Source of the DNA: Capitulum mitella
Lineage: Eukaryota > Arthropoda > Thecostraca > Pollicipedomorpha > Pollicipedidae
Length of the DNA: 64,000 nt
Direction: 5' to 3'
Assembly (NCBI GenBank): GCA_030062745.1
Contig: CP099850.1
Location: 434,001 to 498,000 of the forward strand
Shown: in pieces, positions 6,401 to 51,400 of the stretch
How the letters are laid out: every line of letters starts with the position of its first letter
How positions within the stretch are numbered: the first letter of the stretch is position 1
Made by a program: the position numbers and the translations under genes
Notes under the pieces: generated by a model
Databases searched by the model: none
What the model saw: only the letters and a program-made list of their open reading frames with translations
What the model was told of the DNA's origin: nothing

Positions 6401-9400
6401 GAGAGAGAGAGAGAGAGAGAGAGAGAGAGAGAGAGAGAGAGAGAGAGAGAGAGAGAGAGAGAGAGAGAGAGAGAGAGAGATGGGGGGGACATCAGGGCAG
6501 TCGAGAATAGACTGGAGAAAGAGAGCGAAACTTGACGTAGCGCACTTGGCCAGCAACTGTGATTCGAGTGGCATTGCCATGCGTGAATGAACGTCAGTGA
6601 TTTTCCTGCCGGTCACGGCTCAGTTTACCGCGATGGACGATGTGACCACTGGCTTGCCGTTGCCGCGCGCTGACCGTGCGACGGCGGCATTTCAGCGACT
6701 GTGACGTCTTCTACGCGGCCGGGAAGACCAGCCAGGTGTTCGAGTTCAGCCTGGCCGAAATGCGCGTCACCAGAATCTTCTCTTTGCCGGACGGCAGCGG
6801 TCACGTGACTCAGCTGATGGTCTTCCCCGGACCGTTCTACGGACAGGTGAGAAGGTCACGTGACCCAGCTGATGACCTGATCGGTCGACTGACAGACATA
6901 TATGTGGGGGGGGGGGGCGCCTGTCGGTGGTCCGCAGACCGTTTTTCTGCGCAGGCAGCAGTGGATCAGACGCGTTTGGAACTGGTCTTTCGCCGGGCTG
7001 CATACGGGGGCTGCTGACGGGTGTGGCCGCTCAGGTACACACAGAGTGATGTACATTTCGCATACATGGAAATGGAGGAGGGGTGGCCGTTCTTCAGGTT
7101 TCCCGCCTTCGCACGTCGCCGTGATAGTCTAGTGGTTAGGACCTCGCGTTGTGGCCGCGATAACCCCGGTTCGAATCCGGGTCACGGCAGTTGCTTTCTT
7201 ATGTGCTTGCTCTTGACGCTGGCTCCCGTGCGTTGCGTATACGTCGAAACGGGAGAAGGGTTGCCGTTCTCCGCTCTATGAGTGCACACACGACAGGATG
7301 GACAGCTGCGCCTTCCTCGCATCCGCACGGAGGCTGGCAGGCGGCAGTTTGCGTGCCGAACGCCCATTATGTACAACGGACTGCCTACCGAGCTGACCAG
7401 GCGGAAACTGGATTCTTGAAAATGAACTTAAAGATGCTCTTAAAGAATGACATTGTGACATGGACTGTTGGTTCTGACCGTCGTTTGTTTCCGTACTTGT
7501 TTCATTTTTTTACTTGATTTCATTTTTTTTAATACTCCTCCGATGTAGAAATGCTAGGAGGTGACTGACCATGGTACTGTTACGCTTCTTGTGTCCGATA
7601 CTGAGTGCATGATTTAGATCCCTCGTCGTACTGTAACGTTTCATTCTGCATGACACAGGACAGGGAATAGCCGCATTGTATGTGAAATGTCCCGAGAAAT
7701 AAACTGCAACTGAACTGTTCTCCAGGCTTCAGCACGCCGCTCCTCGGCACTTCGGCACTCCACCGCACTATTCTAGTGGTTGGGACCTCGCGTTGTGGCC
7801 GCGATAACCCCAGTTTGAATCCGGGTCACGGCAGTTAATGTCTTAGACGTTTCTTCTTGACGTATATTGCTACTGAGGTACGCCAGGCTGGTGCACATTG
7901 TGCGTACACGGACAAGGGCAGGGCACTGGCGAATCCAGGGGAGGGCCGATGAAGCCATGGCTCTCCTTTTTGTTGGAAAGGGATGTCGTGTCTTGTCCCC
8001 CTTTTCGGAAGAAAACGTACTTGTTTGTTCTTTCTAGATATGTGCTAGTTTTTGAAAACGGTAAAAGAAAGTGGCCGAAATCCAGGGAGAAATCAACATT
8101 TGTGGCTAGGTTAAATAACACGGATGAAGATGTGGTCCCCCCTTAGCACGTGGTCTGGATCCGCCCTTGAGGTAGGGGTTGCCTTCTCTACTCTTGCCGT
8201 TTCGGTACACCGCCGTGATAGTCTAGTGGTTAGGACCTTGCGTTGTGGCCGCGATAACCCCGGTTCGAATCCGGGTCACGGTAATGGTTTCCCGTTTTTG
8301 ATGGTACTGCGGTCGAATTATAGGATCGTGTTGAGAGGTTATTCTTACGCCTTCTTATCCGGCGTGACCTTTGCAGGTTTCCGTTTTGTTTCATGTGGTT
8401 GGGGATTAGAAGGGTGGCGGTGGAAAATCGTAGAAAATCCCTGACTGGACAGAGTCGGTTCCGTTCCCTTGCTTACCACGCTTGGCGCCAACCTGTCAGT
8501 TCCCGTTCCGTCAGATTCTGGTTGTTTTGTTGACTGCAGTTCGTTTCCCTGAGACACCTGTCAGTGGTGTCGGATTCTGGTCGTTGTCTTGGTTACTGTG
8601 TATACCGTGACGTATACTGTGTATACGTGTGTATACTGTGACGGTGTCTGCTCCGTAAGATTGTGGCTGCTGTCTTGGTTACCATGTATGCCACTGACCT
8701 GACATTGTCTGTTCCGTCAGATTCTGGGCGTTCTGCTGGAGAGCGGCGCGGTCAAGTTCATCCACACGGAGACGGGGCGTGTGGTGCAGAGTCTGAACAA
8801 CCCCCGGCACAGCATCGGTCAGTACCAGCCGAGATGGGCTCACCGGCGGCCTGCCGTTTGCCAAAACGCTACCGCGGTGCTTCATGGTTACCTTTTTGAT
8901 TAAGCCCATATTAAACAGTAGCTTCAGCTGTCTTAGCGTGTCATGCAGCAGGACGACCGCAGCTCATAACTGCGCGTGGAGGGGTTTTCCAATATCTTTA
9001 TTTTGATCGGACGTGTTACTGCAGTTAAAACTCCCGTGCCGTGACCCGGATTCGAACCGGGGTTATCGCGGCCACAACGCGAGGTCCTAACCACTAGACT
9101 ATCACGGCGACAGCTAATGCCAACCACGAAATCCAGTCGCTGAGTATCCGGTAGAACCTTTTCCAAACTTAATATAGTGCCCATAATTTGTACGACACGG
9201 ATGCAGCCCTCCGCCACCGACGTTAGAGTAACCGCCCGACCGGCCTCCCGACTTCGCCGGGCTGCAATGGAAAAAATTAGGAACCGAATCTAAAATGTTA
9301 AACGTCGAAAGATACCCATGAAACTCGCAGGAAATGCACAAAATGTCAGCAGGCTAGCTTCATTACAGCGAAAGTTATGCGCAGTAAGACACAAGACGTG

Positions 9401-48400: not shown

Positions 48401-51400
48401 AAACTCACGTGCCGTGACCCGGATTCGAACCGGGGTTATCGCGGCCACAACGCGAGGTCCTAACTACTAGACTCTCACGACGGCGATAATTGTAAAGAAC
48501 GAAATGCAGTCGATGATATCCTATTGTGGCTGCTGTCCGTAAGAACCTGTTCGAAACCCAACCTGGTGCCAATCCTACTGCCTGACACACGTGCGGCGGT
48601 TTTCCACGTTCAAAATATCGGCCACGCTATCGACCTCCCGACTTCGCCTGGCTGCAGTGAGTTACAAACCTTTTGTAATGAGTAAGCTTCAAACCGATTT
48701 TAAAATTTTAAATGTCGAAACCTATATTTGGAGTTAAGCAGAGGATACACAAAATATAATCGCTCTGGCATGGTTACAGCGAACGTTATGCCCCCCCAAA
48801 AAACTTGGGGATTGGTCGATTCCCTCCCCGCTTACCAGTGTGAATGTTGAGCATGTTTCGCTCCTTTCGTAAAATTTGCTGCTAATGCCTAGATTGCTAA
48901 AAGTTGTTCCAGACAATCCAGGGCATGACCAAATCAAAAGGTCTTGTGGTTTATTCTGGGTAAGATCCTCGTACTGTCACGAGGAAAATAATTGTATGGA
49001 GTCAAGCTTGAAGGGATATGTGTCGAAATGGACTTGCCACGTTTTTCGGTTTTGGAACCTAAGATCAAGCGCAAAACTCAGACTGACTTGTAACTGGCAT
49101 CGTTTCAGGGGACGTTGACATCGTCATCTTGGGGGGAACGTAGAGGGGTTCTGAAACATTGTTAGAATGTCACTCACTGATCTTACTATTCGATAAGTTT
49201 GCATCCGCTTATATGCTCTGAAACCTTTACGCTGATACAAGGCTCAGTCGTAGTGACATTGGCACGTGCAGCACATCGTTCAAAAGTTCTCTCGTGAACT
49301 CGCTGTTGATAAGGCAGCACCGTGGCATATTTTTATGGTTACGTAATCTATGTGCAATTTAAGCATCTGCGGTGCGGCCAGGTGGGCACGCAGGATCTTA
49401 CGGTAGGGGTGGACAGCATATGAAACTGCCACAGCGTCGTGTCGCGGATGTGTAGGAATCTGTGCATTTTGATGGGACGTGATACTGCGGTTAAAACCCA
49501 CGTGCCGTGACCCGGATTCGAGCCGGGGTTATCGCGGCCACAACGCGAGGTCCTAACCACTAGACTATCACGGCGGCGAATCATATCGGCAGCAGAATCT
49601 CTTTCTTAACATTCTGATTTGATTATGAGCGAGTCCGAAGGCCGAGTAAGTGTTTACTAGTAAAAACTGCTAGTAAGTAGAGAAGCAAGCCTGTACTTCA
49701 AGTACCAGAAAAAGTTAAATTTAACAGTCCGGCTCGGCTGTGACGCTTTCTGGGGGCTAATAACTTCGCCACCACGAGACACTGAATCGTGACAAAGAAG
49801 ATAGCTCGGTTCTTTAAATTTTGTGTCTTCGGTTTCTATGAGTTAGCCTGCAAGCTGTTTCTTCCGCATCACTGTTCCGGTTGTAATGTTTTCTTCCTAG
49901 ACCTGTCTTCTACGGACGTTTTTGAACCACTCATTAATGGCAGCGAACATAATTATGGGCGCGCGTAATGCTTAAGTTCTGAATTCCTCGAATGCGAGAA
50001 CTGAGAAGATCGATATGTTTCCCTTTGTATTTGGGAATGCGTAAGGGCGGAGGAGATAATGATGCAAGTAGCAACGAAGTGGGAAGATGTGCCCACAGGA
50101 CGTCTCACTTCTAGCGACTGTGGAATTTGTACGGAAAAGAGTCTGCGGTTTGGCCAGGTGCGCCTCTATGGTGTTAGCGGCAAGGGGCCGTAGTATTCGG
50201 GTAGGTATGTGAGAAATGTTCATTTTGATGGTACGGGATCTGCAGTTTGAAAAACCCACTTGCCGTGACCCGGATTCGAACCGGGGTTATCGCGGACACA
50301 ACGCGAGGTCCTAACCACTAGACTATTACGGCGGAACTGTACAGGGACACCGATATCCATTAGGTGATATCCCGATTTAGTATATTTTGCATGGTTGCTC
50401 TCGGTCTGGAGCATTAGCGTTTGCGGTCCGAACAGGTGCGTACCCAATTTTTGCGAGGGGAAGAGTTAAAGTAAATGAATCTATGAAAAATATAAGTCTA
50501 AAAAATGAATCTAAAATATAAATCTAAGACCCGGATAAAAAAAGAGTCTAAGGAAATAGATCTATGAAATCTGAGCAGGTTGGCTGTTTCTCGTGTGGCC
50601 TCTTTCCTCGCTGAGTATTTTGTCTCATCCAGAGTGGGTCAGGGCCCAAAAAGGGGATGCCCGCGGCCTTCCTTTCATGCGTTTTTGCCTTCGTGTTTGT
50701 TGCTGCCGTGCCGTGTTGTTGCCTTCGTGTTTGTTGGTCGTGTTTGTTACGCTGCCCCTGTGACTGCGAGGACCTGCACGGTTATAGACGTGCAGCCGCT
50801 GTACACTGCTGCTCGCCGTGTGCTTTGTGTGACGGGGACAGAGCTGGCCTCTGCTGAAGAGAAGATTGCTCTCTCTCCGCCGCCGCCGCGGGGGCCAGGC
50901 TGTCGGTCTGCATGTCTCTGCTGGTGAGCATTGCTAACCCACTCCGGCCTCCTCGCCGTGATGCTGGCTAGGTCGGCCGTCCCTAATTCCGTGCTGGTGA
51001 GCATTTCTCACCCACGGCGGCCTCCTCGTCGTGGCGGCAGCTAGGTCGGCCGGCCCGTCTCCCTGTCGGGGAGTATTTCTATCCCATTCCTTCTTCCGGC
51101 AGCGCACCTGTCGGCCAGCCGGTCGGGCCTGTTCCTGGCCTGTCGGCTCGCGTCCGGTCATATCTGCCTGCACCATAGCACCGGAGACGTCTTCAAGCGC
51201 ATCGTGCTGCCCGAGGTGCTGTACGACAACAAGCCGCGCGTGCTGCTGGTCGACGACTCGGTGACGCGCGTGCGGCCGTCGACCGCGCCACCGTCCGCCG
51301 CCGCCGCCCACAGAACGAAAGCTGCTAAGGTATGGTTCTGGAAATTCTCGATGATTCTCAGGGTCAGCTCACCGCGCCTGTCGGTGGTCTCCGCCCGGCC

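Follow-up and report, generated by a model that had tools for sequence, protein, structure and literature searches.

A homogeneous cluster of mostly intact tRNA-His(GTG) genes, probably maintained in a long intron of a TBC1D31-like gene of Capitulum mitella

Introduction

How does one protein gene come to hold dozens of transfer RNA (tRNA) genes of a single kind in its introns, and do they look like working genes, like a selfish repeat or like a fault of assembly? The question is raised by a stretch of Capitulum mitella DNA of 64,000 nucleotides, called here the window (assembly GCA_030062745.1, contig CP099850.1, positions 434,001 to 498,000, forward strand; positions below are those within the window, and single copies are named by their first position), for which a first-pass annotation made from the letters alone had reported 37 tRNA-His(GTG) loci in two introns of one gene. 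Our answer, to which we would give a probability of about 0.8, is that the array is a homogeneous cluster of a single isodecoder, composed mostly of intact nuclear tRNA-His(GTG) genes, which lies in a long intron of a TBC1D31-like gene and has grown by local and inverted duplication with the gene bodies being maintained. As background, tRNA genes form homogeneous clusters that turn over quickly (PMC2888827, PMC4981973), and clusters of fifty or more members are described in Nematostella and in teleosts (PMC2888827).

A single-isotype array in two introns

ARAGORN predicted 36 tRNA-His(GTG) genes between 7118 and 50332 (16 plus-strand and 20 minus-strand genes), and tRNA genes of no other type in the window. 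A truncated copy at 7772-7833, found by blastn with the tRNA body (62 of 72 bases, 95% identity), brings the loci to 37 (Table 1). The first-pass count is thereby reproduced as a tally of the assembled sequence, although it is probably inflated by about four at an overlap beside an assembly gap, as considered below. At the published tRNA density of C. mitella (748 tRNAs, 16 chromosomes, 463.09 Mb; PMC8416341), about 0.07 tRNA genes would be expected in the array span. The 72-base bodies are identical in 15 of the 36 predicted genes, and in 11 of the 26 non-redundant copies.

Table 1. Features of the tRNA-His array and its host gene (positions within the window)
Feature	Position	Strand	Basis or remark
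Outlying tRNA-His loci, intron before the main one	7118..8283	+	ARAGORN, blastn
Probable WD-like exon	8724..8810	+	Open stretch read by eye, limits approximate
Main array, left part to contig end	9037..33854	.	Loci 9037- to 32759-, both orientations
Large inverted repeat, left arm	19492..28542	+	Six tRNA-His loci
Inverted-repeat spacer	28543..31086	.	Loci 29424+, 30077+; starts in (AT)n tract
Assembly gap	33857..34356		500 N
Main array, right part	34675..50332	.	Loci 34675+ to 50261-
Large inverted repeat, right arm	36338..44057	-	
Next probable exon	51045..51230	+	Open stretch read by eye, limits approximate

Flanking sequence is common among the array copies and falls into several subfamilies; in the best unit pairs the flanks align over hundreds of bases at about 61-89% identity, and gene pairs separated by 530-690 bases are met repeatedly, in either orientation. 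The earlier description of 15 identical bodies in both orientations with common flanks is thus borne out, with the restriction that the sharing of flanks applies to the array subfamilies and not to the outlying copies 7118 and 8212, whose best match to the array outside the body amounts to 2-5 bases upstream and 7-17 downstream.

The host exons were read by eye as open stretches. One probable WD-like exon lies at ~8.72-8.82 kb and the next probable exon at ~51.1 kb, which places loci 7118, 7772 and 8212 in one intron and the other 34 of the 37 in the following intron of ~42 kb, in agreement with the two introns, and the uneven division between them, of the first-pass annotation. We take the host gene to be TBC1D31-like partly from its presumed similarity to that protein and partly from a TBC-like exon at ~53.3-53.6 kb, since a PDB search with the stretch at ~53.3 kb gave two weak matches, one at E 0.017 to a 'Rab-GAP TBC domain-containing protein' and one at E 1.6 to 'TBC1 domain family member 31'. 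A Pfam search with ten open reading frames returned no family above the cut-off. Close behind a WD-like host exon, at 6318-6480, an (AG)n tract runs uninterrupted for 163 bases.

Conserved bodies among diverged flanks

Low tRNAscan-SE or isotype scores would mark the array as a dead repeat family, as the first-pass annotation had itself pointed out. The covariance scores are high: 34 of the 36 predicted genes exceed the gathering score of the Rfam tRNA model (the exceptions being 29424 and 34675), 15 of these 34 reach the top score of 65.7 bits, and 26 of the 34 score at least 59.2 bits. All 21 cloverleaf pairs are intact in 19 of the 26 non-redundant copies. Energy folding alone, applied to the tRNA body, did not give the complete cloverleaf, and the assessment draws on named pairs and the covariance model instead. 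A TTTT tract, the mark of an RNA polymerase III terminator, stands at +7 in 30 of the 36 copies and within 25 nucleotides in 32.

The bodies have also stayed alike where their surroundings have not. Among 253 comparisons of 23 copies, 48 pairs had distant flanks at least 62% identical, and in all 48 the body was more alike than the distant flank (means 96.0% versus 68.4%); the remaining 205 pairs, whose distant flanks had no recognisable kinship, were excluded from this average. Considering the scores, the contrast of conserved bodies and diverged flanks, and the terminators together, the intact genes of the array look functional, as far as sequence features can tell.

Individual copies show several states. 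The outlying copy 7118-7189 has an identical body and no TTTT within 25 nucleotides, and 8212-8283 carries two substitutions with its pairs kept. Copy 35328 has a one-base insertion and lies close to the right contig end at the gap, and copy 17084 has a changed T-loop base with a transposon about 16 bases upstream. A block at about -50 to -22 that appeared conserved in a consensus of 26 rows was set aside as a candidate upstream element, because the pairwise profile from -50 to -21 (75-77%) was no better than that farther upstream; this flat profile leaves us making no promoter claim. How the block lies with respect to copy 17084 and the transposon inserted there is one isolated instance.

Clusters of other isotypes

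One explanation would be that selection for a high supply of histidine tRNA specifically drove the expansion. In the genome searched (16 sequences, 477.0 Mb), tRNA-His outnumbered the other three isotypes queried, with 40 matches, or about 38 genes once the overlap at the gap is corrected for, compared with 17 Ser(GCT)-like copies at 88-100% among 30 matches, 11 Cys(GCA)-like copies at 93-100% among 19 matches, and at least 28 Arg(TCG)-like copies at 86-100% among 40 matches scored. Against this stands the generality of clustering in this genome, together with the restriction of the comparison to four isotypes. An Rfam tRNA search of the genome, in which the best 63 of 14992 candidates were scored and which is therefore no census, listed other clusters, and the stretches that we fetched were chosen because clusters appeared there. 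They were again dominated by single isotypes: Ser(GCT) in 9 of 9 calls, Cys(GCA) in 4 of 4, Arg(CCT) in 4 of 4, Thr in 3 of 3 with two anticodons, and Arg(TCG) in 8 of 10, the other two being Gln and Arg(TCT). As other isotypes are clustered likewise, an explanation particular to histidine is weakened, and we regard it as unlikely.

Signs of inverted duplication are also seen outside the His array. The Ser stretch contains two inverted repeats, and on C2 (36982797-37030653) two groups of five Arg(TCG) matches about 35 kb apart have mirrored spacings, 1175/1177/871/338 versus 1173/1169/874/340. A further cluster lies at C7:23376413-23415394, where eleven tRNA-Ser-like matches, 84-89% like Ser(GCT), extend over 39 kb.

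Dispersed tRNA-His genes and flank repeats

Let us next consider selfish amplification, in which a tRNA-carrying transposon, a long terminal repeat (LTR) element or a tRNA-His short interspersed element (SINE) would have piled up in one intron. The presence of both orientations and of common flanks is what such a unit would leave behind, and pieces of the flanks, about 65-460 bases long, do match dozens of other places in the genome at 65-83% identity. The full-query-length matches of two flank queries, in contrast, lay only within the array (best 40 of 124 and best 40 of 61 candidates scored, for both kinds of match). Of the 40 matches that the body itself gave in the same genome (best 40 of 44 candidates), 34 belong to the array and six lie elsewhere. 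Five of these six bodies are identical to the array body, and the sixth, on C10, has four base differences that amount to two doubly changed and still paired positions of the anticodon stem.

Among the matches listed, no dispersed flank match adjoins any of the six outside loci; the nearest approach is a 61-base piece of the flank repeat about 1.2 kb from the tRNA-His gene at C12:16.49 Mb. When the flanks of five dispersed genes (one gene of the C13 pair being used) were compared with those of the array in three windows each, 14 of the 15 comparisons were unremarkable in a shuffle test. The exception concerned the C7 gene, whose initial 20 bases of trailing sequence are slightly like the array trailers (13 of 200 shuffles as good). 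This likeness and the C12 piece are the further points that a selfish unit has in its favour. Flank pieces that are dispersed without an adjoining tRNA-His gene indicate that the array holds old dispersed repeats rather than being itself a dispersed tRNA element, and the arrangement expected of a SINE or retroelement, a tRNA attached to an invariant body and scattered across the genome, was not found among the candidates scored. In addition, the array bodies are full length and the flanks vary between subfamilies, both of which count against such a unit, and the sole clear transposon present does not contain a tRNA. The first-pass suggestion of a selfishly amplifying tRNA gene (tDNA) unit, understood as a mobile element, is therefore unsupported by the candidates scored and very improbable.

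That transposon is a 1.2-kb element at 17161-18373, inserted at a TTAA target about 16 bp upstream of copy 17084. We presume it to be piggyBac-like, a family marked by TTAA targets and matching inverted ends. Relatives are present at 22362-23580, at 39971-41188 and at L039 5387-6607, and at least 43 matches were found genome-wide (best 40 of 9092 candidates scored). All eight copies inspected have TTAA at both ends, and the inverted ends read CCCTATTCCCGG at 15 of 16 ends, the remaining one being slightly different. One copy of the element in the Arg(TCG) cluster is inserted in the TTTTAA terminator directly behind a tRNA gene. Separately, 27639-27778 is an old dispersed repeat of 140 bases that lies within one unit subfamily and has many outside matches at 73-81%; one of these matches is found some 160 bases past a tRNA-Arg gene (L052).

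The assembly gap and the number of copies

The array is interrupted by the gap of 500 N, and the sequence on its two sides, 29106-33854 (+) and 34357-39105, is 99.2% identical over 4763 columns, so that a repeat of about 4.75 kb bounds the gap. When the contig end before the gap was aligned with the contig to its right and with the left arm of the large inverted repeat, 44 columns were found to deviate in the final 2.8 kb of that contig end, against only 2 and 3 in the other two copies. Of these 44 deviations 19 are indels, some adjacent columns probably representing one small indel each, and 37 fall within the last 500 bases before the gap. The simplest explanation is that two overlapping contig ends were left unmerged; the alternative would be that the segment was recently duplicated in tandem and that the contig end is rich in errors. 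With an unmerged overlap, 29424, 30077, 31736 and 32759 were counted again as 34675, 35328, 36987 and 38011, and the number of full tRNA-His copies is probably 32.

The large inverted repeat raises a related concern. Its arms are 99.84% identical over 4386 columns and 99.50% over 3376 columns in two aligned pieces, and it accounts for six further copies (19932, 21291, 21894, 25702, 26798 and 27822, each with a mirror image). Were this repeat also an artefact, the number of full copies would fall to 26. The left arm contains a pure (AC)n tract of 1349 bases (23851-25199), against about 27 bases (39674-39700) in the right arm. Similar AT-rich modules of 104-116 bases stand directly outside the left arm (19266-19453) and where the inverted repeat has its inner end (28541-28830), a possible clue to the breakpoints.

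Could the array, then, be mostly an artefact of duplicated contigs? The error-rich contig end, the 99.2% repeat around the gap and the 99.5-99.8% identity of the inverted arms all point that way. Both contigs, nevertheless, span the junction of spacer and right arm, judging by the repeat coordinates, and 26 full copies stay without any near-identical stretch. Outside the near-identical stretches, moreover, the unit flanks differ by about 10-40%, and since assembly errors do not produce such divergence, we reject an artefact of the whole array as very improbable. The possibility of an assembly artefact, which the first-pass annotation had raised, thus probably applies to about four copies at the gap and not to the array at large. 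By way of caution, the copy number of an array that lies at an assembly gap should be backed by reads.

Discussion

The best reading of these observations, in our view, is that the array is a large, intronic example of the known birth-and-death type of homogeneous tDNA cluster. As in the animal clusters surveyed in PMC2888827, there are many close copies of one isoacceptor in mixed orientation, with pseudogenes and rapid turnover; the isoacceptor is the same in 36 of 36 genes (His(GTG)), and neighbouring genes are mostly parallel, in 22 of 35 cases by a hand count from the ARAGORN calls, as they predominantly are in that survey. The neighbour limit of 1 kb given there fits less well: 16 of the 35 gaps are within 1000 nucleotides, the largest being 3736, and a strict rule would split the array into several sub-clusters. 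The unusual features are the wide spacing, the restriction to one isodecoder, the position within an intron and the large inverted duplications.

Other known systems resemble the array in part. The human tRNA repeat at 1q23.3 is likewise an array in which conservation is concentrated in the tRNA genes, but it is built of 7.3-kb tandem units, 9-43 per allele, for which copy-number variation and CTCF binding have been shown (PMC4041453). The tRNA-Cys and Ser/Tyr clusters of Arabidopsis are likewise local repeats of one or two isotypes; the former differs in having four genes in 0.4-kb units, and the latter in being silenced in most tissues (PMC10701932, PMC12308677). The tRNA-Ala(GGC) expansion of a centipede shares the arthropod host and the single isotype with our case, and differs in being scattered and, as its authors think, mostly made of pseudogenes, possibly within a transposable element (PMC4244043). 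The first-pass impression that a His-only intronic array had not been described agrees with our searches of open-access papers, which turned up no description and are no proof of absence. That the array is mainly a chromatin boundary or a regulator of the host gene strikes us as scarcely credible, for although dense predicted RNA polymerase III (Pol III) genes do lie within an RNA polymerase II (Pol II) intron here, and although the human repeat is implicated as a boundary element (PMC4041453), a boundary role would not need the full tRNA sequence to be conserved.

Several observations weigh against the reading of a maintained cluster of mostly intact genes grown by local and inverted duplication, and we gather them here. 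Over all 276 pairs of 24 copies the body averages 96.1% identity and the adjacent 60 bases 61% upstream and 64% downstream with gaps counted (shuffled 49%), whereas a count of mismatches only puts the adjacent flanks at 72% and 75%, barely higher than the 70% of shuffled sequence, so that the adjacent flanks of many pairs lie near the limit of recognition and are little informative. Substitutions in the stems kept the pairing in 9 of 15 cases versus 35% expected (p 0.04), but the test is weak, excludes 19932 and 44263 and counts a change common to related copies twice. Some copies are evidently decaying: acceptor ends are broken in 19932, 43546 and 44263, the anticodon arm is altered in 29424 and 34675, and 4 of the 36 copies have no TTTT within 25 nucleotides. 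Gene conversion could give identity of the bodies without every copy being in use. Finally, the large inverted repeat sits at the 500-N gap, and no inverted repeats of 250 bases or more were found in the fetched Cys, Arg(CCT) and 10-kb Arg(TCG) stretches.

With these reservations, we picture the maintained cluster as having arisen in the following manner. The array would have expanded over a long period as segments of about 0.6-9 kb were duplicated locally again and again, often in inverted orientation, the trigger perhaps being the stalling of replication forks at tDNAs or at AT-rich tracts. Selection, with or without gene conversion, would hold the 72-base bodies alike as the flanks diverge and some copies decay. 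Those copies that are intact may be transcribed by Pol III from internal promoters, adding to the tRNA-His pool.

One might go further and suppose that the tDNA clusters of this genome in general grow by recurrent inverted duplication at tDNA-stalled forks beside AT-rich tracts, the His array being the most advanced of them and the main source of tRNA-His. We consider this extension unlikely. If it were true, single-isodecoder arrays in both orientations would arise in many places, and the supply of a tRNA would be tied to one fast-evolving intron.

Irrespective of that extension, the array is a compact natural record of the expansion of a tRNA family, in which a constant body is combined with flanks that have diverged to graded extents, and which includes inverted copies both recent and old, decaying copies and a transposon insertion, all within a Pol II intron. 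As such, it would permit selection to be tested against gene conversion in the evolution of tRNA families, and would help to show how the splicing of a long intron is compatible with densely packed Pol III genes.

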